Shown here in pieces: positions 1,798 through 12,107 of a stretch of DNA of 64,000 nucleotides. The DNA comes from Cohnella kolymensis. GTDB lineage: Bacteria; Bacillota; Bacilli; Paenibacillales; Paenibacillaceae. Both the position numbers and the translations under genes were made by a program. The first letter of the stretch is position 1; every line of letters begins with the position of its first letter. The stretch is taken from NCBI RefSeq assembly GCF_000829465.1, contig NZ_JXAL01000001.1, forward strand, positions 620,001 through 684,000, written 5' to 3'. The notes under the pieces are model-generated. The model saw only the letters and a program-made list of their open reading frames with translations. It did no database searches and had not been told where the DNA came from.

Positions 1798-2310
1798 TTA
1801 CTCCCAAGGATAGCTCTTTACCAGATGATCGGCAAATTTCTTGCTTTCTTCCCTGCGGCTTTTTCTCAATTGCTTACGATATTCAGCGGTTTCGTATAAT
1901 ACCTTCTCCTCTTCGCTCTCTGGCACGATTTCGGGCACGGGGACCGGCTTATTTTGTTCATCCAGCCCGACAAAGGTAAGAAAGGAGGTTGCTGCGATTT
2001 TCCGTTCCCCGCTTAATAAATCTTCCTTGATCACTTTGACGAAGACCTCCATGGAAGTCGTACCCGTTCTCGTCACATAGGATTCCAATGCTACGGCATC
2101 GGTGGGCCTGATCGGCTGCAGGAAATCCACGGAGTCCGTAGAAGCCGTAACCGCGGTTACGCGGCATAGTTTGGTAGCCGATATGGAAGCGATATTGTCG
2201 ATATCAGACATGAGTTTACCGCCGAACAACGTTTCATGATTATTCACATCTGTCGGGAAAACTCGCAATATTTTAAAACACCGGGTTTCTTTTGCGTACA
2301 TCTTGCTCAT
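1798..2310 (-). CDS. ykhA: Acyl-CoA thioesterase, YkhA-type hotdog
   Basis: A 170-residue hotdog-fold acyl-CoA hydrolase, similar in size and sequence pattern to B. subtilis YkhA. The segment NNHETLFGGKLMSDIDNIA contains the conserved N-H-x-x-x-F-G-G active-site motif of the acyl-CoA thioester hydrolase family. The C-terminal tail is charged and helical. An upstream ATG exists, but I chose ATG at 2310 because an AAGTGGTG ribosome-binding site sits before it and the family starts here. It is monocistronic, with a terminator on the far side. The likely role is hydrolysis of fatty acyl-CoA. Confidence 0.88.
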   Translation of the reverse strand: MSKMYAKETRCFKILRVFPTDVNNHETLFGGKLMSDIDNIASISATKLCRVTAVTASTDSVDFLQPIRPTDAVALESYVTRTGTTSMEVFVKVIKEDLLSGERKIAATSFLTFVGLDEQNKPVPVPEIVPESEEEKVLYETAEYRKQLRKSRREESKKFADHLVKSYPWE

Positions 2311-2385
2311 ATTCACACCACTTTCCGATAATTGGCATTCGCTTCGAACATTTTTCCCTCTTCGGTATTGCATTATGCTTATAAA

Positions 2386-2412
2386 GAAAAAAGCCGGTCT
2401 ATCAGACCGACT
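2386..2412 (-). terminator. Rho-independent terminator after the ArsB/NhaD permease
   Basis: AAGTCGGTCTGATAGACCGG folds into a stem of about 8 bp followed by CTTTTTT on the minus strand. It lies 23 bp past the permease stop and is the first good terminator below the acid-sugar operon. Confidence 0.85.
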
Positions 2413-2435
2413 TAACCAAATACATTAACAATTAA

Positions 2436-3719
2436 TCACATCAGATACCTTAAATAGATATAGATGCTCGACAGGACGATGGATATGAGCATTAACGGAA
2501 ACCCGTACTTGAGGAACTTAACGAACGTAATCGGGTATCCCTCTTTGGCGGACAGGCCGGCTGTGACCAGATTCGCACTCGCGCCGATCAGCGTTCCGTT
2601 GCCTCCCAGACAAGCTCCGAGAGCGAGACTCCACCATAGCGGCTCCAGGTTGCTCACGCCCATGTTGCCCATTTCCTGAATCAGAGGAATCATCGTCGCC
2701 ACAAAAGGGATGTTGTCCATGAATGCGGAGGCGATAGCGCTCATCCAGAGAATAAGCATCGAAGTTGCGACAAGGTTTCCGCCTGTCAGATCGATCGCTT
2801 GGACCGCTAAATCTCGGATAATACCGGTATCCACCAATGCTCCCACAAGTGTAAACAGACCTATGAAGAAGAAAATGGTGGTCCACTCTACTCGGGTCAA
2901 CGCTTCCTCCATTGTATGCTCGCCTGAGAGCAGCAAGAGCAGGAACGCGCCTGTAAGAGCAACGACAGAGGACTCGACATGCAGCACCTGATGCAGGAAA
3001 AAGCCTGCGATGGTCAATGCCAAAATAACCAAGCAGCGGATAAGCAGCGGACGGTCGGTAATTAAACCGCTCTGCTCCATTTCCATGATGCCCCGCTTAT
3101 TTTCCTCGTTTGTTTGCAGCTTTTTGCGAAACAGCAAAATGAAAAACGGAATATGGGCAGCCATGACCACAATTACAATGGGAGTCAAATTGTTGATGAA
3201 AGCCATAAACGTCAGCTCTTTCACTGCGCTGCCGATCATAATGTTCGGCGGATCTCCGATGAGTGTCGCTGTTCCGCCTATGTTGGAAGCCACAATTTGC
3301 GTAAATAAAAAGGGAAAAGGCTGTACCTTTAACTGACGGGCAAGGCTGAACGTTATGGGAACGATTAGCAGCACCGTGGTCACATTGTCCAGGAATGCCG
3401 AGACGACTGCAGTGATGACCGCCAATGAAACCATGATCCTCACCGGCTCGCCTTTGGCTCTTTTGGCAGCTGCAACGGCTATGTAACTGAAAAGGCCTGT
3501 TTTCGCGATGACATTCACGATGATCATCATCCCGATCAACAGTCCCAGCGTGTTGAAATCGATATGATGCTCGACGGCCGATTCCACATCAACAATACCC
3601 AATATAACGACCAACAGCGCGCCCAGCATCGCCAAGATCGTACGGTGAACCTTTTCCGCAATAATCATTCCGTAGGTGAACAAAAAGACGGCCAACGCCA
3701 ACCAAGCCTGCTGTTCCAT
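2436..3719 (-). CDS. ArsB/NhaD-family anion permease
   Basis: A 427-residue integral membrane protein with about 10-12 hydrophobic segments, of the ArsB/NhaD (ion transporter) superfamily. The two inverted halves show the typical paired motifs: FLDNVTTVLLIVP with GGTATLIGDPPNIMIG in the first half, and FMDNIPFVATMIPL with GGNGTLIGASANLV in the second. Members export arsenite or exchange sodium or carry organic anions, and this subgroup is not assigned. GAGGAGG precedes the ATG. It lies 58 bp after the aldolase gene with no terminator between, so it may be the last gene of the acid-sugar operon. In that case an organic-anion role would be more attractive than arsenite, which is inference. Confidence 0.82.
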   Translation of the reverse strand: MEQQAWLALAVFLFTYGMIIAEKVHRTILAMLGALLVVILGIVDVESAVEHHIDFNTLGLLIGMMIIVNVIAKTGLFSYIAVAAAKRAKGEPVRIMVSLAVITAVVSAFLDNVTTVLLIVPITFSLARQLKVQPFPFLFTQIVASNIGGTATLIGDPPNIMIGSAVKELTFMAFINNLTPIVIVVMAAHIPFFILLFRKKLQTNEENKRGIMEMEQSGLITDRPLLIRCLVILALTIAGFFLHQVLHVESSVVALTGAFLLLLLSGEHTMEEALTRVEWTTIFFFIGLFTLVGALVDTGIIRDLAVQAIDLTGGNLVATSMLILWMSAIASAFMDNIPFVATMIPLIQEMGNMGVSNLEPLWWSLALGACLGGNGTLIGASANLVTAGLSAKEGYPITFVKFLKYGFPLMLISIVLSSIYIYLRYLM

Positions 3720-3777
3720 AGGTCCTCCTCGCGTAAAGCGTGCTATCAGGATTTGTCTCTCTTATAAGAAGTATAAC

Positions 3778-4440
3778 TTATATGTTCCAATTTCTTCTCG
3801 GTTTGTAGCCGGCTCTATCAAGAAAATCACGTTCCTTTTCCACGGATAGACCAGAAATAGGGATATTGGCAGACTTCGATACGATTAGCATTTTACAGGC
3901 CATTTCTAATGTTTGCAGTGCCATACGCGCTTCTTTGATGGAAGTATCGTATACGAGAACGCCGTGATTTTCAAGCAGCAGGATGTTTGCCGATTTCGCT
4001 TTCTCGCGCACACCTTCGCCAAGCGCCTCGCTGCCCGGATGATAGTACGGCACTCGTTCTACCTTTTCGAGATAATACATCGTCTCAACGAACCAGTTCG
4101 TTGGGATTTCGATCTTGGAGCTGGCAACCAACGTGCTGTAAAACGGGGATGCATGCAAAACGGCACCGATTTCCGGCCGGTTCTCGTAAACAGCTTTATG
4201 CATCGGCGTTTCCTTGGAAGGTTTCCGAGCTGCCGAGCCATACGACTTGCCGTCCAGATCGCATTCAATCAGATCTTCATCGTCCAGTTCACCTAGAAAT
4301 GTGCCGCTTGCGGTAATAAGATAGCGATCCCCTTCCGTGCGGGCGCTGATATTTCCGGCATTTCCCCAAGCAAGCTCGTATTCCATCATATACTTTCCGG
4401 TATGCTGCAGCTCTTTCCGAACGGTCTCTATATTAGGCAT
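3778..4440 (-). CDS. Class II aldolase/adducin-family lyase
   Basis: A 220-residue member of the class II aldolase/adducin family (FucA, AraD, OtnC relatives). Visible motifs are GNAGNISAR (phosphate loop), TASG, the catalytic acid in KETPMHKAVYENRP, and a metal-binding histidine region AVLHASPFYST, with a further histidine in ENHGVLVYD. In the FucA type the metal site reads H-x-H; here it reads H-A-S, so one expected zinc ligand is absent or displaced. GGAGG precedes the ATG. It lies downstream of dctM after a hairpin. In context it should cleave or decarboxylate a phosphorylated 3-keto sugar acid, as OtnC does for 3-oxo-tetronate-4-phosphate, but the substrate is not proven. Confidence 0.82.
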   Translation of the reverse strand: MPNIETVRKELQHTGKYMMEYELAWGNAGNISARTEGDRYLITASGTFLGELDDEDLIECDLDGKSYGSAARKPSKETPMHKAVYENRPEIGAVLHASPFYSTLVASSKIEIPTNWFVETMYYLEKVERVPYYHPGSEALGEGVREKAKSANILLLENHGVLVYDTSIKEARMALQTLEMACKMLIVSKSANIPISGLSVEKERDFLDRAGYKPRRNWNI

Positions 4441-4479
4441 ATTTTATTTTTCCTCCGTTCTGTGATGGGCCCCGACAAA

Positions 4480-4505
4480 CGGAAAGGCCGCATCGCGGCC
4501 ATCCG
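4480..4505 (-). other. Intercistronic hairpin between dctM and the aldolase gene
   Basis: CGGATGGCCGCGATGCGGCC pairs with itself (GGCCGC/GCGGCC plus an outer CGGA/TCCG). No strong T-run follows, so mRNA stabilisation or partial attenuation is likelier than full termination. Confidence 0.55.
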
Positions 4506-4522
4506 TAGCAGAACAAAGTCTC

Positions 4523-5797
4523 TTATTTTAGAAGGTTCGGAAGAAACATAGTGATTTGCGGGATATAAGTGATGAGCAATAAGGTAAGCAGGAGTACCAG
4601 ATAAAAAGGTAACATCCCTCTTGTGATCTGCAGCAGGTTGATTTTCGCAAGTGAAGACGAGATGAACAAATTGATCCCGAGCGGCGGCGTACACATACCC
4701 AGCGCCAGGTTGACGATCATAATGATCCCGAAGTGAACCGGATCGATTCCTAGAGCTACCGCAACAGGCACAAGCAGCGGCGCCAAAATAATGATCGAAG
4801 CATTGGTTTCCATGAACATCCCTACAACCAGCAAGAACAAATTGACGAGAAGCAGGAACACCATCGGGTTGTCGGATATGCCCATGAAGAAGTTTGCAAC
4901 ATCCTGCGGGATGCCTTCACGCGTTAAGATCCAACCGAACAAACCGGCACTGGCAAGGATGAACATGATGGCCGAGGTTGTGACAACGGATGAGGTCAAA
5001 ATATTCATGATTTGCGTAATTTTGATTTCCCGATAGATCAGCATGCCGACGATAATGGCGTAAGCCACCGCTACTCCGGCTGCTTCAGTAGGTGTGAAGA
5101 AACCTCCGTAGATCCCGCCTAGAATGATAATCGGCATAAGCAGTGCAAAGAAAGAGTCCTTGAATGTCTTCCACAATTCTGCTCCGGATTTGCGTGTTTC
5201 TTTGGCATAGCCGCGCTTCTTAGCGATGATAAACACCGTAATGATCAAAGATAATCCGATTAATACGCCAGGTATGAAGCCCGCCATAAACAGATCGCCG
5301 ATCGACGTTTCCGTTGATATCCCGTACAGGATGAGCGGAATACTAGGCGGAATGATAACACCGAGTTCGCCGGAAGCTGATTGAACCGCACCGGCAAAAT
5401 TGCGATGATAGCCGCGGGCGATCATGGCCGGAATCAAGATACTGCCCAAGGCTGCAGTCGTTGCTGCGCTGGATCCCGAGATCGCCGCGAAGAACATCGA
5501 TGTAACGACCGTAACGATTGCCAATCCGCCGGAAAAGTGACCGGTCAGCGCATTGGCAAATGCAACGAGTCTCTTGGAAATGCCGCCGTACTCCATGAGT
5601 ATACCTGCCAGGACGAAGAACGGAATCGACATAAGCGGGAATGAATCGAGCGAAGTGAAAGAACGCTGCACTAATACGATGAGCGGTGTTCCGCCATCCC
5701 ACCAAATCGCAACAGCTGCTGCGAGGCCCATCGAGATTGCAATAGGCACCCCAAGTGCAAACAACAATAGGAGAACTCCGAAAAGTATGATACCCAT
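4523..5797 (-). CDS. dctM: TRAP transporter large membrane subunit (DctM)
   Basis: A 424-residue, very hydrophobic protein of the TRAP large permease family. It starts MGIILFGVLLLLFALGVPIA and carries the family segments SIPFFVLAGILMEYGGIS, AAISGSSAATTAALGSI and GELGVIIPPSIPLILYG. It forms the sodium-driven channel for the periplasmic-type receptor DctP together with DctQ. Its start codon shares one base with the dctQ stop (TAATG), so translation is coupled. In this operon the cargo should be a sugar acid. Confidence 0.95.
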   Translation of the reverse strand: MGIILFGVLLLLFALGVPIAISMGLAAAVAIWWDGGTPLIVLVQRSFTSLDSFPLMSIPFFVLAGILMEYGGISKRLVAFANALTGHFSGGLAIVTVVTSMFFAAISGSSAATTAALGSILIPAMIARGYHRNFAGAVQSASGELGVIIPPSIPLILYGISTETSIGDLFMAGFIPGVLIGLSLIITVFIIAKKRGYAKETRKSGAELWKTFKDSFFALLMPIIILGGIYGGFFTPTEAAGVAVAYAIIVGMLIYREIKITQIMNILTSSVVTTSAIMFILASAGLFGWILTREGIPQDVANFFMGISDNPMVFLLLVNLFLLVVGMFMETNASIIILAPLLVPVAVALGIDPVHFGIIMIVNLALGMCTPPLGINLFISSSLAKINLLQITRGMLPFYLVLLLTLLLITYIPQITMFLPNLLK

Positions 5798-6321
5798 TAC
5801 AGCTGTTCCCCCGCTTTCAGTGCTTCCGCAACTTCAGATGTTTCAATATCATCTTTAGTCAGAAAGTCAATAATGACGGCGATAGCGTTGACAATCATCA
5901 GTGCGGCGCCGATTGGAATGGCCATATAGGCATAATCCATTTCAAGGCCGAGACTCGGCGAATGCTGCCTTTTTACGATTTCAAGCATATCCATACCTTT
6001 TACGAGTAAAAGAATGAAAAATACAATGGAGATCAGCATAACCAAAACTCTCAGAAACTTGCGCACCTTCGGTTTCACTGTCTCAAGCAGGACCTCGATT
6101 GCGATCATTCTGTGATTGCGCAGAGCTAGAGGAGCGCCCAGAAACACTGTGTATACCATCAAATATCTTGCAGCTTCCTCAGACCAAGTCAGCGGGTTCT
6201 CTAGTACGAATCTGCAGATTACTTGAACGACAATCAGAATAGACATCGCGCCTAACATCAGGCCTACCAAGATGCCCACCAACTTGTTCAAGAAGTCTAT
6301 TCCTTTCATAACTGGCTGCAT
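5797..6321 (-). CDS. dctQ: TRAP transporter small membrane subunit (DctQ)
   Basis: A 174-residue protein with four hydrophobic helices. RFVLENPLTWSEEAARYLMV is the DctQ signature, and GAPLALRNHRMIAIEVL follows it. I chose ATG at 6321 because GGAGG lies eight bases upstream; a longer frame to 6390 has no ribosome-binding site and would run into the dctP-side hairpin. Coupled to dctM by a one-base overlap. Confidence 0.92.
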   Translation of the reverse strand: MQPVMKGIDFLNKLVGILVGLMLGAMSILIVVQVICRFVLENPLTWSEEAARYLMVYTVFLGAPLALRNHRMIAIEVLLETVKPKVRKFLRVLVMLISIVFFILLLVKGMDMLEIVKRQHSPSLGLEMDYAYMAIPIGAALMIVNAIAVIIDFLTKDDIETSEVAEALKAGEQL

Positions 6322-6371
6322 GCCGGTTATCCTCCTCTGGCGACGTAAATTACGTCCCGGTTGGTAAAACA

Positions 6372-6419
6372 GGAAGGCCGGTGTCCGCATGAAGACAGTC
6401 CCGCGAGCACCGGCCTTCC
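6372..6419 (-). other. Intercistronic hairpin after dctP
   Basis: A perfect 12-bp stem (GGAAGGCCGGTG / CACCGGCCTTCC) sits between the dctP stop and the dctQ start, followed on the minus strand by the weak run TGTTTTACC. Such hairpins behind binding-protein genes commonly raise the level of the binding protein over the permease by stabilising its mRNA or causing partial termination. Confidence 0.7.
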
Positions 6420-6433
6420 ATTACATTCTTTGC

Positions 6434-7468
6434 TTATTTTGTATTTATGATGCTGTCATACAGCTCCTGGCCGTATTTCTTGGCAAATTCGGCATGAACC
6501 GTTTTTGCTTTCTCGGCAAATGGCGCAGTATCCAGTTCTACAACTTCCATGCCGGAATCCTTAAGCGTCTTCAGCAATTCTTCTTCGTTTTTAGCTACCA
6601 GATCATTTTCGAATTGAGTTGCCTCTTTAGCTGCTTCCTCTACCGCCTTCTGTTGATCCGGGGAGAGCTTTTGATACGTCATATCGCTCATCGTCAACAA
6701 CACGTAACCGTATACATGATTGGTAAGCATCAGGTGTGATTGAACTTCTTGGATTTTATTGCTGGCGATTAGAGCAAATGGATTTTCTTGTGCGTCGATT
6801 ACGCCGGTTTGCAGGGATGAATAAACTTCGCCGAACGCCATCGGCGTCGGGGAAGCGCCCATCGCTTTCCATGCGGCAATGGAAGCGGGAATTTCAGGTA
6901 CACGGATTTTTAAACCTTTCAGGTCTTCGACTTTTTCGATTTTTTTGTTAGCCGTCAATTCGCGAGGACCTCTGACCCAGAACTCAAGGCCGCGAACCTG
7001 TGCGTTATCCAGCAGATCTTTTTTCAACTTCGTACCTACATCACCGTAGAGCACTTTTTCCAGATGGTCTTTGTCACGGAACAAGTAAGGGAGCTCCAGA
7101 ATCGAGTAAGGCTCATAGAAGTTGGATAGAACGCCGGCTACGAGTGCAAAATCAACGGAACCCATCTGCATGCCTTCAATCATGTCGCGGTCGTTACCAA
7201 GCGTGGAACTCGGATACACTTCAACCGTAACGCTGCCGTTGGACTTCTCTTTCACTAATTCAGCGAATTTCAATGCGCCTTTGTGCCAAGCATCGGATTC
7301 GCCTGTAATATGGCCGAGACGCAAAGTTACGTTCTTGCCCGTTCCGCCGGACGCAGCGGAACCGCCAGGTGCTGCGGAAGAACCGTTGTCTGGTTTACTG
7401 CTTCCACACGCGGCAACGCTTACAGCAAGCAATGCAGTCATGACTACACCGGTAATTTTCTTAAACAT
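6434..7468 (-). CDS. dctP: TRAP transporter solute-binding lipoprotein (DctP)
   Basis: A 344-residue DctP-type receptor. The N-terminus MFKKITGVVMTALLAVSVAA is followed by cysteine (lipobox VAAC), so it is a membrane-anchored lipoprotein. A Gly/Ser-rich linker comes next. The mature part contains the conserved FWVRGPRELTANKKI region and the ligand-binding stretch KGLKIRVPEIP, where an arginine normally contacts the carboxylate of the ligand. AGGAGG precedes the ATG. It is the substrate-capturing component for the operon, and the ligand is predicted to be a small sugar acid. Confidence 0.94.
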   Translation of the reverse strand: MFKKITGVVMTALLAVSVAACGSSKPDNGSSAAPGGSAASGGTGKNVTLRLGHITGESDAWHKGALKFAELVKEKSNGSVTVEVYPSSTLGNDRDMIEGMQMGSVDFALVAGVLSNFYEPYSILELPYLFRDKDHLEKVLYGDVGTKLKKDLLDNAQVRGLEFWVRGPRELTANKKIEKVEDLKGLKIRVPEIPASIAAWKAMGASPTPMAFGEVYSSLQTGVIDAQENPFALIASNKIQEVQSHLMLTNHVYGYVLLTMSDMTYQKLSPDQQKAVEEAAKEATQFENDLVAKNEEELLKTLKDSGMEVVELDTAPFAEKAKTVHAEFAKKYGQELYDSIINTK

Positions 7469-7519
7469 AGATAAAGCCTCCTAATTGGTTGTGTGCTCAT
7501 TTATCTCCCAAAGGCCTGG

Positions 7520-7550
7520 CCGGCTTCTCAGCGCAGCGGCTTGAAGCCGG
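7520..7550 (-). other. Intercistronic hairpin between dehydrogenase gene and dctP
   Basis: CCGGCTTC and GAAGCCGG form an 8-bp stem with a 15-nt loop in the 102-bp gap before dctP. There is no T-run, so it probably acts as an mRNA processing or stability element. Confidence 0.5.
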
Positions 7551-7570
7551 AACCATCCTCAGTGGACAGG

Positions 7571-8596
7571 TTATTCAAACGTGACGAGGACCTTAAGCGA
7601 AGAATCTTCTTTCTTGTCTACGAGCCGGAAGCCTTCAGCCGCTTGCTCGTACGGAAGTCTATGGGTAATGATGATGTCTTCTTTCACTGCTCCCGCAGCA
7701 ATCAGATCAATGGCGGTGATTGTGTCTTCGCGGTTATAGGTCATGCAGCCTACAATCTCTTTCTCCTGATTTTGCAGGTTGTGAATATCGAATGTCTGAT
7801 CGCCGTGGAACATAGCGATTGTAACAATACGTCCGCCCTTACGCAGCAGTTTAAGAGATTGATCGATAATGCCGGGAACCCCCGCAGCTACGAGCACCTT
7901 ATCGAATGTTCCGCCGATCAGCGCATTGGCTTCCTCTGTCCAATCCGGCTTGTTCATGATGTTCAGGGTGTGAGTCGCACCCATCTTCAGGGCGCTTTCC
8001 AGCGCATAATCCATTACATCAGTAACCAGCAGAGTCGTTGCGCCCGCTGCTTTAGCCGCCGCCATCGCAAGCAGGCCGATTGGTCCGGCGCCTAGAATTG
8101 CGACTTTGTCCCCGACTTGAATGCCGGCTTTGCGTACAGCATGAACGCCGACCGCAAAAGGCTCAACCAAAGCTCCCTGCTCGAAGTCCATTCCGTCCGG
8201 TAATTTGAATACCGTTTGTTCGGGCGTGGCGAAATACTCGGCCATTGTGCCGAACCACCCGCCGATACCGGGAGCACCGCGTTTTTCACAGTAATTGACC
8301 TTTCCGGACAAGCAGTATTCGCAGCTGCCGCATCCGGTTTGCGGTTCTACGGTTACCCGATCGCCAGGCTGAAACCGGGTGACGGATTGCCCCACTTTAA
8401 CGACTTCACCGGAAATCTCATGGCCGATAATGACCGGCGGCTTCCGGAAAGGATGGAGTCCTTTGTAAGTATGGAGATCCGATCCGCAAATACCGGCAAT
8501 TTTGACCTTGATCAACACGTCATTCGCTTTCAGTTCCGGTATCTCTACATCCTTGACGATGACTTTGTAGGCATCCTCTACATAAACGGCTTTCAC
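7571..8596 (-). CDS. Zinc-dependent alcohol/polyol dehydrogenase (MDR family)
   Basis: A 341-residue medium-chain dehydrogenase. The catalytic zinc ligands are in ICGSDLHTY and IIGHEISGEV; the structural zinc lobe is GCGSCEYCLSGKVNYC; the NAD fold is VAILGAGPIGLLAMAAAKA. It resembles sorbitol and threonine dehydrogenases. The frame can be extended 10 residues, but I prefer GTG at 8596 because GGGAGAGGA is spaced for it and MKAVYVED is the usual family start. In this operon it should oxidise a hydroxyl of the imported acid to a ketone before phosphorylation. That is inference from gene order. Confidence 0.88.
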   Translation of the reverse strand: MKAVYVEDAYKVIVKDVEIPELKANDVLIKVKIAGICGSDLHTYKGLHPFRKPPVIIGHEISGEVVKVGQSVTRFQPGDRVTVEPQTGCGSCEYCLSGKVNYCEKRGAPGIGGWFGTMAEYFATPEQTVFKLPDGMDFEQGALVEPFAVGVHAVRKAGIQVGDKVAILGAGPIGLLAMAAAKAAGATTLLVTDVMDYALESALKMGATHTLNIMNKPDWTEEANALIGGTFDKVLVAAGVPGIIDQSLKLLRKGGRIVTIAMFHGDQTFDIHNLQNQEKEIVGCMTYNREDTITAIDLIAAGAVKEDIIITHRLPYEQAAEGFRLVDKKEDSSLKVLVTFE

Positions 8597-8635
8597 TTGT
8601 TGTTCCTCTCCCATCTGTCTTTTCAAGCTGAGTCT

Positions 8636-9286
8636 CTATATAAAGAGCTTGGTCTTCGCCTGTTGAAGATGCTGCCGCATCCTCTCAATGCATTCCTTGC
8701 TGCCTTGCTTCAAAAGATTAAAAAACTCGATGTGATCCTGCAGGAATACTTGCATTCTGCGAGGGTCTTTCCGCAGGTGTCTCAGGGTAATTCGCAGCAA
8801 ATGATCCTGGTAGTTCAGCAGAACGCGATAGATTTCCTGGTTGCCGGTGAACTTGCAGATCAATAAATGAAAAGCATGATCCGCTTTCGCGAAAGCCTTC
8901 ACATCCAGCCGCTTCACGACCTCGGCCGTTTCATCAAGATTTTCTTGAAGCAGTGCCGTTTGTTCCTCCGTTAACCGGCCGAGCACTTGCCCGACATTAA
9001 ACGTTTCAAGCGCGGTCCTGAGGTCGTAGATGTCAATGATGCGATTGATCGCCAGATCGTTGATGATGATCCCTTGCTTGGAGAAGACCGTAACGAATCC
9101 TTCGGCTTCAAGACGGGTAAGCGCTGATTTGATCGGGGTTTTGCTCATGTCCAGCAGCTCGATCAGTTCGCGTTCCGATAAGAATCGCCCCGGCTCGAAC
9201 CTCTCGTCGAGAATCCGTTCCTTTATCTGCTCGTAGGCAATATCTTTCAGCAAAGGCGCCGACCCCGAAACTTTAGATTCGTTCAC
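8636..9286 (-). CDS. GntR-family (FadR/FCD) transcriptional regulator
   Basis: A 216-residue regulator with an N-terminal winged helix (IKERILDERFEPGRFLSERE then MSKTPIKSALTRLEAEGF) and a C-terminal all-helical FCD ligand-binding domain with metal-type histidines (KADHAFHLLI, DHIEFFNLL). It starts with GTG after AAGGGGA. Its position inside the sugar-acid operon makes it the obvious regulator of that operon. The four palindromes at 12039-12080 are the candidate binding sites, with the transported acid or a pathway intermediate as inducer. Confidence 0.9.
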   Translation of the reverse strand: MNESKVSGSAPLLKDIAYEQIKERILDERFEPGRFLSERELIELLDMSKTPIKSALTRLEAEGFVTVFSKQGIIINDLAINRIIDIYDLRTALETFNVGQVLGRLTEEQTALLQENLDETAEVVKRLDVKAFAKADHAFHLLICKFTGNQEIYRVLLNYQDHLLRITLRHLRKDPRRMQVFLQDHIEFFNLLKQGSKECIERMRQHLQQAKTKLFI

Positions 9287-9316
9287 GTTCCAATCCCCTT
9301 CTCTCTCGATTGCACA

Positions 9317-10681
9317 TCATTCCGATGCAGCGTCCCGTACTCTGGCGAAATAATCGGGACTGCCGAATTGTCCGCCCTTTAAGGCAAGCTCGATGCCATC
9401 CATGCTTCTTTCGTCGGAGTATACCTTGCATAGAGGTGCGCCAGGCGAAATGGGCAGAAGCATTTCCAACCCGTAAATGCCCATTTCGCTGGTCACGAAC
9501 CCCGAGGTATCCCCGCCCGCGATCACCACTCTTCGCAGATCCGCTTCCCGCATGATGTACTTCGTCCAGCGTCCCAGCTGCCGGCCGATAAATTCACCGG
9601 ACCGGGAGCCGTCAAAGCCTTTGGCTGCAAATGCCGACCTTGTCGCCGCAATCGCTTCGTCGTCAGGTCCCAACGCCGTATAGAGAACGACGCTTTCGCC
9701 TTCATTCAGTAAGCGGATGGCTTGCTCCAGCATCTGTTCGGGCAGGCAGTCTGCATTCACAAGAGACTCGACCGGAATGCGGATGCCATGGAATCCCTGT
9801 GCAATCGCCGTTTCGATTTGCCGCTGGCTCACCGGTGACGCGCTGCCGGATACGGCTAAGATGCGGTTGGCCGGCTCGATGCCCGTTGTACGCGCAATTT
9901 GTACCGGAGAAGTCTCTGCCTTTTCCCAAAATGCCGTTAACGCATATTCCACACCGGACGAGCCCACAACAAATTGAGGGCATTCAGCTGCAGTTTCCCA
10001 GATTAATTGGCCGCTAACCGCAAGTCTATCTTGATCCAGCACATCGAACAGGAGCACCGATGGCTTGTCATTCAGCTTCTGCCGGAAACGATCGGCCACC
10101 GACTCCGGTTTACCTTCGAGCTCAATAATACTCATTAAGGCAACCTCTTCACCCAGCTGCTTGTTCAGATGCAGCCGCAGATCCGCTTCGGCCATCGGTG
10201 TAACCGGATGACGGGACATCACCGGGTGACGGTCCAAGCGATAGACCTGCCCATCCATACGGGCGAAATGCTGGCCGAACACAGTGTATCTTCCCAGTGC
10301 AGGAGCTCCGACAAGAAGCGGCACCGTCTCCTGGCCCTTAAAGAAGGGGCGGGATACCCGGATGGCTTCGCCGATGCTGCCGAATTCAGGCGAAGAATCG
10401 AACGTCGAACATACTTTGTAGTGGACAATCGGCGCTCCGATGCTTGATAGGCGTTCCATCACCGGAGCCAGCTCCTTTCGCAGCTCGGCAGGCGCTTTGG
10501 CCCGGCTGGTGCCGGCGACACCGACGCACCGAATCCCGTCAAACCGCTGCAGCATGTCCGGCGTAGGCGCTTCCAGGAACAGCACCGTTCGATAACCGCT
10601 GAGGGTCAATGCTTCCATCGCATCGGTCGATCCTGTAAAGTCATCGCCGTAAAAGGCGAGAAGAAGCTGATTATCTTCCAT
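9317..10681 (-). CDS. DUF1537 (four-carbon acid sugar kinase family) protein
   Basis: A 454-residue two-domain kinase. The N-terminal substrate domain begins LLLAFYGDDFTGSTDAMEAL, the DUF1537 signature. The C-terminal nucleotide-binding domain contains VVIAGGDTSGFVTSEMGI. Characterised members (DtnK, LtnK, OtnK, OiaK) phosphorylate acid sugars such as threonate, erythronate-derived 3-oxo acids or 3-oxo-isoapionate. It lies 23 bp after the RuBisCO-like gene and has GGAGG before ATG. Pairing with a RuBisCO-like protein points to the OiaK type, but 3-oxo-tetronate kinase activity cannot be excluded. Confidence 0.88.
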   Translation of the reverse strand: MEDNQLLLAFYGDDFTGSTDAMEALTLSGYRTVLFLEAPTPDMLQRFDGIRCVGVAGTSRAKAPAELRKELAPVMERLSSIGAPIVHYKVCSTFDSSPEFGSIGEAIRVSRPFFKGQETVPLLVGAPALGRYTVFGQHFARMDGQVYRLDRHPVMSRHPVTPMAEADLRLHLNKQLGEEVALMSIIELEGKPESVADRFRQKLNDKPSVLLFDVLDQDRLAVSGQLIWETAAECPQFVVGSSGVEYALTAFWEKAETSPVQIARTTGIEPANRILAVSGSASPVSQRQIETAIAQGFHGIRIPVESLVNADCLPEQMLEQAIRLLNEGESVVLYTALGPDDEAIAATRSAFAAKGFDGSRSGEFIGRQLGRWTKYIMREADLRRVVIAGGDTSGFVTSEMGIYGLEMLLPISPGAPLCKVYSDERSMDGIELALKGGQFGSPDYFARVRDAASE

Positions 10682-10704
10682 TCTGTGGTGTCCTCCCGCC
10701 TAGA

Positions 10705-11967
10705 TTACTTGTTGCCGAAAACGCGAATCGCTTCTTGAAGCTCCGGGCGTGACTCGGCATAACTGTTCAAATCGATGCCTTGCACCGCAGCTTCCCAGCC
10801 TTGCTGCATACTGCGAACGCCTTGAGCGCTGCCGCCCGGATGGGCCAAAATGCCTCCGCCGGCTAAATGGATCACATCCAGGGAACGAACCGCCTTGTAC
10901 GTAGGAATGGCGCTTCCTGCCCATTGCGCCGAGGAAATGACCGGCATAACGGTATATCCGCCTAACATAGGAGTGAGGCAATCCTTAATGGATTGCGTTA
11001 CGGATTCATTGCTTTCCGTAAATTTGCTGTCCAGTCCGTTGGTGTGCAGATGGTCTACCCCGGCCATGCGATACAGCTTCTGGTAAGCGGTGAAGCTCAT
11101 ACCAAGCAGCGGAGACCGGGTCATAGCTCCCCATTGATTGCGGTGTCCATGAATCGGCAATTCAGTATACTCGCGAAGATAAGCGACTCCGGGCAATCCG
11201 ATACTGTTTACGCTGACCATCACACAAGTTCCGCCTGCGTTCAGCACGGTATCGTGATTTCGTTTCATTTCATCGATCTCGCCGGTAATGTTAAACGCAT
11301 ACATCAACTTCTTGCCTGAGCGGTCCGCCGCTCTTTCAATCTCTTCCATCACAACCCGCACACGCTGCTCGAAAGGCGCGGCCGGCGGGTTGGCGCACAG
11401 CTCGTCGTCCTTGATGAAGTCGAGACCGGCGTCCGCCAGATCTCTTACCAGAGGACCGTAGTCGGCCGGCGGCAATCCGATGCTCGGTTTGACGATTGTG
11501 CCGATCAGCGGCCGGTTATAGACGCCTGCCAGTTTGCGTGTGCCTTCAATGCCGAACTTGGGACCCTTATAGCGGGCGGCAAAAGCCTCAGGCAGTTCAA
11601 GGTCCACGAGCCGCAGTCCGGAAAACTCTCGCAGCTCATATAAATTGCCTGCAACTGTGGACAGTAGATTCGGCAGCGAAGGACCGAAGTTATGGAGCGG
11701 AAAAGAGAGCTTTACGCGTGCTCTGCGATACACCGGCTTGACCATCCCAGGCGCTAGGTAAACGCCCGGCAGCGAGGGTGAATCCACAGCGTCCAATTCT
11801 TCTATACTGACAACTTGCGCGGCATGGCGCGCTTTCAGCTCCGGCGTTTCCCCGGGAACTGCGATAAAGGTGCCGGTCGATTGCTCGCCGGCCATCACTT
11901 CAGCGGCCTTTTCCAAAGGGTATGGCGTCTCAATAAGATAAGTCGCATATACTCGCTGGTCTGTCAT
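10705..11967 (-). CDS. RuBisCO-like protein (RLP) of an acid-sugar pathway
   Basis: A 420-residue RuBisCO large-chain homologue. By pattern the key RuBisCO residues are kept: the first active-site lysine in IGTIVKPSIGL; the carbamylated lysine with its Asp and Glu in GLDFIKDDEL; the histidine in PIHGHRNQWGA; the loop-6 lysine in HTNGLDSKFTES; and the phosphate loop GGGILAHPGGSAQG. It is the first gene of the operon and is followed by a DUF1537 kinase. In known apionate routes such RLPs act on 3-oxo-isoapionate-4-phosphate (decarboxylase, or transcarboxylase/hydrolase OiaX). It is therefore expected to be a catabolic C-C lyase rather than a CO2-fixing enzyme; no Calvin-cycle genes are seen. 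Confidence 0.87.
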   Translation of the reverse strand: MTDQRVYATYLIETPYPLEKAAEVMAGEQSTGTFIAVPGETPELKARHAAQVVSIEELDAVDSPSLPGVYLAPGMVKPVYRRARVKLSFPLHNFGPSLPNLLSTVAGNLYELREFSGLRLVDLELPEAFAARYKGPKFGIEGTRKLAGVYNRPLIGTIVKPSIGLPPADYGPLVRDLADAGLDFIKDDELCANPPAAPFEQRVRVVMEEIERAADRSGKKLMYAFNITGEIDEMKRNHDTVLNAGGTCVMVSVNSIGLPGVAYLREYTELPIHGHRNQWGAMTRSPLLGMSFTAYQKLYRMAGVDHLHTNGLDSKFTESNESVTQSIKDCLTPMLGGYTVMPVISSAQWAGSAIPTYKAVRSLDVIHLAGGGILAHPGGSAQGVRSMQQGWEAAVQGIDLNSYAESRPELQEAIRVFGNK

Positions 11968-12038
11968 CGTTAAGACATCCCCTTTCGCATTGCTGTAGCA
12001 TTGCGATTTATGACAATCGGGAGGAACTCCATTACTGT

Positions 12039-12080
12039 TAGATCTATCTTAGATCTATGATAGATCTATTTGATATCTAT
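12039..12080. promoter_or_regulatory. Four tandem palindromic operator repeats upstream of the RLP operon
   Basis: Four copies of a 9-mer, TAGATCTAT three times and GATATCTAT once, begin at 12039, 12050, 12061 and 12072, exactly 11 bp apart. Each core with its flank (ATAGATCTAT) is itself a palindrome. They start at the -10 element and run over the predicted transcription start. Steric repression by the operon's GntR-family protein is the simplest reading. Confidence 0.75.
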
Positions 12081-12107
12081 CTTATGGGGAGCGCTTTCAA
12101 TTGTCAA
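12079..12107 (-). promoter_or_regulatory. Sigma-A promoter of the acid-sugar operon
   Basis: On the minus strand TTGACA (12102-12107) is followed after exactly 17 bp by TAAGAT (12079-12084). It lies about 110 bp upstream of the RLP start codon. Confidence 0.8.
12086..12099. promoter_or_regulatory. cre-like box inside the promoter spacer
   Basis: The minus strand reads TGAAAGCGCTCCCC. Its left part matches the catabolite-responsive element consensus TGNAANCGNWNNCA fully; the final CA is replaced by CC. It sits between the -35 and -10 elements, where CcpA binding would block the promoter. Confidence 0.5.

Follow-up and report, generated by a model that had tools for sequence, protein, structure and literature searches.

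What kind of pathway is encoded where a RuBisCO-like protein (RLP), a DUF1537 kinase, a class II aldolase and a TRAP transporter stand in one run of genes? The question is raised by nine minus-strand genes (2436–11967) of Cohnella kolymensis in the window, the whole 64,000-nucleotide stretch analysed here (on contig C1 of a 4.34-Mb genome). A preliminary description had listed RLP, DUF1537, GntR, MDR (medium-chain dehydrogenase/reductase), dctP/Q/M, aldolase and permease genes in one direction, and had taken them for an acid-sugar-type operon built on the RLP and the kinase; gene calls and Pfam matches confirmed all nine as listed, and the type of operon is supported by the data below. The locus is a real, conserved operon of the RLP-DUF1537 catabolic kind, in a form that looks different from the known apiose pathway. 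As to its chemistry, we consider the question evenly balanced whether it serves an OiaT-like route, in which a branched tetronic acid would pass through the MDR, the kinase and the RLP to yield 3-phosphoglycerate and a small acid, with the roles of aldolase and regulation as proposed below.

A nine-gene operon conserved in ten genomes

The operon was found in ten genomes (the window and loci L022, L023, L024, L025, L026, L106, L107, L182 and L183), eight of which carry the complete nine-gene set in order; the stretches examined in L026 and L107 gave no permease match. Two operon genes of L024 are each in two pieces, so this assembly may hold frame errors. The five operon genomes with assigned names are Paenibacillaceae (Paenibacillus and Cohnella), a family in which 30 of 245 sampled genomes gave an RLP match with E ≤ 1e-70. 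Intergenic distances within the operon range from a 1-bp overlap up to 102 bp, and the genes are very probably co-regulated. In favour of the OiaT-like route, the genes for MDR, RLP, kinase and aldolase stay linked in the ten genomes, where the importer is of TRAP type, and also in Pullulanibacillus L032, where aldolase, MDR, RLP, an MFS transporter and DUF1537 kinase form one run. The gene combination that had been called unusual is indeed present in the operon, but its RLP/MDR/DUF1537/aldolase part recurs in L032 with this other importer. None of the titles and abstract openings in the open-access literature searched describes the operon.

The leading gene encodes the RLP (10705–11967, 420 aa; PF00016/PF02788), a member of the OiaX/OiaT-type family. 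It is followed by the DUF1537 four-carbon acid sugar kinase (9317–10681, 454 aa; PF07005 and PF17042), whose SBD_N and NBD_C domains score 171 and 117 bits, above the Pfam cut-offs. Against the NCBIfam OiaK model (NF042436) the kinase reached 480 bits, under the cut-off of 700, and it is closer to OiaK than to OtnK (180 bits). A GntR-family (FCD) regulator with a GTG start (8636–9286; PF00392 and PF07729) precedes a zinc-type MDR (polyol/sugar-acid) dehydrogenase with a TTG start as listed (7571–8626; PF08240 and PF00107); the nearest solved chains of the latter are the ketose reductase 1e3j, 5vm2 and the sorbitol dehydrogenase 3qe3. The TRAP system comprises the solute-binding protein DctP (6434–7468; PF03480), the small permease DctQ (5797–6390; PF04290), whose listed start is, judged by eye, probably too long, and the large permease DctM (4523–5797; PF06808). 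The class II aldolase/adducin-family protein (3778–4440; PF00596) and a CitMHS/ArsB-type permease (2436–3719; PF03600, PF02040) complete the operon. The solved structures nearest to DctP are 4pc9 and 4pcd, whose ligands we take to be D-mannonate and L-galactonate. Reading a substrate from the DctP model was rejected (mean pLDDT 64; top Foldseek matches TRAP receptors in general, led by 4pcd).

Upstream of the RLP gene, a −35 hexamer TTGACA (12102–12107) and a −10 hexamer TAAGAT (12079–12084), both found on the minus strand by promoter scan, form with a spacer of 17 the top promoter match in the scanned 16 kb (12107–12079). The scan by itself was rejected as evidence, with 11 promoter-like sites vs 15.6 in shuffles. 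The promoter is supported because it is kept across genomes: the TTGAC −35 and a GAAA(A/G)CG core in the spacer occur in 10/10 operon loci, window included. For the single strong promoter claimed earlier, the evidence is this conservation and not the scan score. Within the spacer, sequence reading revealed a cre-like (CcpA-type) sequence, TGAAAGCGCTCCCC (12086–12099, minus strand), labelled by what we take to be the cre consensus; a match with ≤ 2 mismatches is present in the spacer of 8/10 loci and suggests catabolite repression of the operon. Downstream of the promoter, a motif search identified three TAGATCTA boxes at 11-bp spacing (12039–12046, 12050–12057 and 12061–12068; no strand assigned) as a putative operator. 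Two to four such boxes (≤ 1 mismatch) stand at this spacing in 10/10 loci, and nine of the ten have a perfect pair (the boxes of L182 are imperfect). A paired box with ≤ 3 mismatches gave three matches in the window vs 0.07 expected; across the window genome, perfect pairs occur at the operon only, one further place having 2 mismatches (C25:2618). The GntR/FCD protein of the operon would be the candidate reader of these boxes.

At the other end, the terminator scan placed a terminator-like hairpin followed by a T-run at 2391–2413 (minus strand). A weak GC hairpin lies inside the operon between dctM and the aldolase gene (4486–4500, minus strand). The latter could attenuate transcription between these two genes. 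Like the promoter scan, the terminator scan was rejected as evidence by itself (15 terminator-like sites vs 17.0 in shuffles).

Two observations concern neighbouring or related loci. In 4/10 genomes a YciA-like thioesterase gene adjoins the operon; in the window (1798–2373) it lies downstream, in L022, L023 and L182 upstream. The RLP of L028 is 70% identical to that of the window, but the genes found with it encode a distantly related DUF1537 kinase (22% identity), a different MDR (32%) and a KdgT permease.

The RLP and the apionate question

RLPs of this family are described in a passage of a review (PMC6302742), according to which one RLP decarboxylates 3-oxo-isoapionate-4-phosphate while another, the Xanthobacter transcarboxylase/hydrolase OiaT, transcarboxylates and hydrolyses it. 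The window RLP scored 462 bits against the NCBIfam OiaX model (NF042437; cut-off 700), and 209 of 409 and 176 of 513.6 bits against the MtnW models NF007095 and TIGR03332. Its identification as OiaX was ruled out by this score together with its residues (see below), and MtnW by scores far under both cut-offs and a separate MtnW-like gene in the genome. The RLP shares type IV membership with MtnW, but the MtnW-like RLP of the genome is only 34% identical to it. That second RLP (L204, contig C26 of the window genome, G000; 33–34% identity) lies near an aldolase-family gene, and the two were read by eye as MtnW and MtnB of methionine salvage.

The window RLP keeps E28, N108, K160, K186, D188, E189, H275, R276, H308 and K315, which we take to be equivalent to E60, N123, K175, K201, D203, E204, H294, R295, H327 and K334 of spinach RuBisCO; K177 is replaced by Ser. 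Positions beginning with residue 85 were checked by aligning the RLP with 2cwx, a form III RuBisCO; the E60 equivalent was assigned by reading motifs. The E60/N123/H327 equivalents (E/N/H) are kept in 141 of 154 non-MtnW rows, a set that contains the window and some repeats of one gene. Twelve rows, among them the three PGAP-named OiaX examined, have D/G/Q instead, a signature defined here from these 12 rows, and the window RLP lacks it. One aberrant row (L173) has lost the E204, H294, H327 and K334 equivalents. Among 301 plasmid records matching the RLP, PGAP-named OiaX showed 41.7–45.9% identity in the 40 best and 60 spread rows listed.

A tree built from 151 rows, which excluded L173 and three duplicates but still had a few genes represented more than once, placed the window type in one group of 12 rows from 10 genomes (SH-aLRT 99) and the 12 D/G/Q, OiaX-type rows in another (SH-aLRT 100). 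The comparison with OiaX proposed in the preliminary description thus puts the RLP outside the OiaX group, and the MtnW clade, named there as a grouping that would speak against its reading, is not where it falls. By its sequence, the RLP goes with the more numerous relatives in which more of the catalytic residues of RuBisCO survive and not with OiaX, and the retained residues point to OiaT-like transcarboxylase/hydrolase chemistry, not plain decarboxylation; which residues the OiaT reaction needs was deduced in this analysis, and the window RLP carries them.

D-apionate catabolism via ApnO, OiaK and OiaX is reportedly the work of Carter et al. 2018. The operon resembles this route in its RLP and DUF1537 kinase pair and in the logic of a 3-oxo acid phosphate. 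It differs in having the MDR, the aldolase and the TRAP importer, in an RLP without the OiaX signature, and in the absence of ApnO from the operon genomes tested and of lactonase or apiose dehydrogenase genes nearby. Specifically, the ApnO domain PGDH_C (PF16896) was found in 0/8 operon genomes (eight of the ten were searched), 3/3 positive controls and 0/14 well-known genomes, which rules out the canonical apionate pathway. No ApnO, ApnL-like, GFO (ApsD-like) or apiosidase match was seen around the ten operons, the last three not having been sought genome-wide. Of the two options left by the preliminary description, a variant apionate route is disfavoured by the PF16896 result, and the evidence leans towards a pathway for a different sugar acid, probably a branched one.

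Fate of the RLP product and rival explanations

OiaX yields L-erythrulose-1-phosphate, which requires a TIM-family isomerase. Genomes making this product would need to isomerise it, so a second TIM-family gene is expected in them. Such a gene was present in 22/22 Hyphomicrobiales genomes with an OiaX-type RLP, vs 1/24 with the window signature (Fisher p 6e-12) and 0/12 background genomes. The count covers 46 of 67 matching genomes, 21 having been left out (several RLPs, or single copies at 49–52% identity). OiaX-type genomes were those at 43–46% identity, with D/G/Q confirmed in 14/14 of those checked, of 22; all 24 window-signature genomes were checked for E/N/H, and the background was drawn as 12 of 330 genomes without an RLP match, all 12 having one TIM gene. 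Among the window-signature genomes, 23/24 have one TIM gene (the two rows of G376 belong to a single gene in pieces), while G455 carries two. By coordinates, a full-length second TIM gene lies within about 8 kb of the RLP in 9/22 OiaX-type genomes; the gene order in G437 is OiaX, kinase, TIM, RpiB-like (named by eye), ApnO. In stretches of at least 9 kb, a TIM or RpiB match near the RLP was found at 0/103 window-signature and 1/12 OiaX-type loci, six further OiaX-type loci with TIM/RpiB being set aside from this count because they had been chosen for a TIM gene nearby. Of the operon genomes, 7/8 have one TIM gene and that of the window has two. Enolase and pyruvate kinase genes, which would be expected if 3-phosphoglycerate is made, lie ≤ 10 kb from an RLP with the window signature in Cupriavidus L113 and Haloterrigena L130.

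The aldolase carries HAS where an HxH zinc motif is usual. The second zinc histidine is Ser in nine aligned copies (8/10 operons and L032), while the Glu and the other two histidines are kept, so that the full FucA-type set of three zinc histidines and Glu73 (presumably H92, H94, H155 and E73) is not present. The nearest NCBIfam model is OtnC-type (NF043034), at 125 bits under a cut-off of 250. Relatives with 39–56% identity adjoin DUF1537 kinases in L190–L193, where the stretches examined contain no RLP; three of the four have HxS, and L192 keeps HxH. The aldolase therefore seems to go with the kinase product and not with the RLP itself. In L190 (by Pfam) and L192 (by eye), the aldolase gene is preceded by one resembling class II FBP aldolases.

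We infer the OiaT-like route, in its substrate, its products and every enzymatic step as well as in the match of regulator to operator, as follows. The compound taken up by the TRAP transporter would be a small acid, with a 2-C-branched tetronic acid (HOOC-C(OH)(R)-CHOH-CH2OH) as the likeliest candidate. The MDR would turn the C3 alcohol into a ketone, giving a 3-oxo scaffold like that of ApnO's product without hydroxymethyl migration, and the DUF1537 kinase would put a phosphate on the terminal CH2OH. Acting like OiaT, the RLP would decarboxylate this 3-oxo acid phosphate, put CO2 back on the adjacent carbon as RuBisCO does, and then hydrolyse the product to 3-phosphoglycerate and R-COOH (glycolate if R = CH2OH). 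The aldolase would probably work like OtnC on another phosphorylated compound made by the kinase; this role is the weakest part of the proposal. The GntR protein would repress the single promoter via the phased TAGATCTA boxes. The inferred likeness to OiaT lies in the kept RuBisCO-type residues and in the lack of a second TIM-family isomerase in most genomes; the feeder differs, being an MDR in the operon and ApnO for OiaT. The operon enzyme roles also resemble those of the yia/ula 3-keto-L-gulonate pathway, where a single operon combines a TRAP importer (yia) with a dehydrogenase, a kinase, a decarboxylase and an aldolase-family enzyme, but its kinase and decarboxylase families are unrelated.

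Several observations weigh against this route. The window-signature set is not one clade, since the D/G/Q group nests inside it (the only outgroup being a very long MtnW branch), and at the thresholds applied there is no residue that tells the window group and the apionate-linked RLPs apart; only softer preferences were seen, e.g. at positions 278, 309 and 317, so that the sequence of the RLP says little about R. The window genome itself has two TIM genes, the extra one next to an RpiB-like gene on contig C3, and may therefore be able to isomerise L-erythrulose-1-phosphate. Lineage may also confound the TIM contrast. The enolase/pyruvate kinase linkage occurs in just 2/103 window-signature loci of at least 9 kb, and L113 also carries otnK-otnC, a possible cause of the linkage there. 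Genes for GlcD-like glycolate oxidase are present in 8/8 operon genomes, but above the family cut-off in one, and the family is common. An OiaT-like route leaves the class II aldolase no obvious job. Finally, the likeness to OiaT was drawn from its description, residues and TIM counts. The C3 region (L203 of G000, 9882–11188) has the second TIM gene followed by the RpiB-like gene among what by eye are PduL-type, aldehyde dehydrogenase and DeoC genes, and may represent a tetrose-phosphate or microcompartment pathway.

Three other explanations have to be set against the OiaT-like route. The RLP could be a plain, OiaX-like decarboxylase giving a ketotetrose 1-phosphate that the aldolase would split into dihydroxyacetone phosphate and an aldehyde, such as formaldehyde, in place of the LerI/DerI isomerases. 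Every enzyme would then have a job, the single TIM gene of 7/8 operon genomes would be accounted for, and the aldolase is of the FucA/OtnC-type family. We nonetheless regard this as unlikely: the OiaX signature is missing from the RLP, which retains the N123/H327 equivalents, one zinc histidine is lost in the nine aldolase copies, and the aldolase relatives of L190–L193 adjoin kinases with no RLP in the stretches examined. Moreover, 23/24 window-signature Hyphomicrobiales genomes are without a second TIM gene, and MDR plus this aldolase occur in just 7/81 mapped loci.

Those same aldolase-DUF1537 pairs in L190–L193, the OtnC-type best match of the aldolase and the presence of otnK-otnC near an RLP-DUF1537 pair in L113 would fit two branches sharing importer, MDR and kinase: one for linear tetronates (threonate/erythronate), ending in the aldolase as an OtnC-like 3-oxo-tetronate-4-phosphate decarboxylase, the other for a branched acid, ending in either RLP reaction. 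Zhang et al. 2016 are said to have described tetronate catabolism by OtnK/OtnC; the operon resembles it in that a class II aldolase-family enzyme comes after a DUF1537 kinase, and differs in a kinase nearer OiaK, an aldolase with HxS and the added RLP. With 125 bits vs a cut-off of 250, Ser as second zinc ligand and one kinase assumed to serve two substrates, the two-branch scheme appears improbable to us. An otherwise standard apionate route in which the MDR, as a non-orthologous oxidoisomerase, takes the place of ApnO could draw on a kinase and RLP of the family used in apionate catabolism and on the absence of residues that part the RLP from apionate-linked copies at the set thresholds. It is nevertheless very unlikely, given the missing ApnO, ApnL-like, GFO and apiosidase matches around the operons, and we know of no MDR enzyme that migrates a hydroxymethyl group.

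Related loci and a candidate L-aceric acid pathway

The relatives scan used one genome per species and kept the best 80 of 313 RLP relatives, so the map of 81 loci (these 80 and the window; some on short contigs) is one of near relatives. A DUF1537 kinase is present in 74/81 loci and ApnO in 31/81, 18 of which also have ApnL-like, GFO or apiosidase genes. A GH127-like gene occurs in 23/81 loci, together with an Asp/Glu-racemase-like gene in 21 of them, and coincides with ApnO at one locus only (L030); there is no apiosidase or ApnL match in the GH127-like loci and no GH2 match in the ApnO loci. MDR plus aldolase account for 7/81 loci and the racemase-like gene alone for 2/81, while 19/81 have none of these feeders. 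SDR-, VOC- and KdgT-linked versions of RLP loci also exist. A VOC-family gene stands directly before RLP-DUF1537 in L123, L132, L133, L179, L180 and L181, with a TRAP transporter in all except the short stretch L123, and is possibly another feeder type.

In the GH127-like loci (L035:7533–9974 and 22 others), the gene lies near RLP-DUF1537, often with GH2, GH78, GH106 or GH42 genes; GH2, rhamnosidase or GH42 genes are present in 18/23. The 575-residue GH127-like protein of Paenibacillus/Cohnella loci is below the Pfam cut-off (E 5e-5 in one of four members, 0.007–0.12 in the rest). The 21 best Foldseek matches of its model (mean pLDDT 64) are beta-L-arabinofuranosidases (GH127/GH146) and, at rank 21, BT_1003, at 12–16% identity. 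Passages of three papers name BT1003 as aceric acid hydrolase and have BT_0993 (GH2) act on galactosyl-beta-1,2-aceric acid (PMC5698469, PMC10850190, PMC11739564). This suggests the GH127-like/racemase-like/RLP-DUF1537 loci as a candidate pathway for L-aceric acid, a rhamnogalacturonan II sugar; the L-aceric acid ketose, HOCH2-CO-C(OH)(COOH)-CHOH-CH3, would fit the kinase/RLP scaffold without a redox step. Against a redox-free route, MDR-family matches occur in 5/23 of these loci, GFO in 3 and SDR in 2. We found no description of an L-aceric acid pathway of this kind in the parts of the open-access literature searched.

More generally, the RLP-DUF1537 pair could be a cross-phylum device for 2-C-substituted 3-oxo-tetronic acids, with true CO2 transfer in a heterotrophic catabolic route to 3-phosphoglycerate and R-COOH, and with ApnO, MDR, SDR, VOC and GH127-like/racemase-like (L-aceric acid) genes as feeders, each for another branched sugar acid from plants, a tentative generalization that we lean against at present. 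If true, RuBisCO-type CO2 transfer would be a widespread catabolic trick and not the rarity of one apiose pathway, and the catalytic signature together with the TIM-gene count would predict decarboxylating vs transcarboxylating RLPs from sequence. The operon offers a protein set ready for sugar acid substrate screening, and the related loci a concrete candidate route for L-aceric acid.

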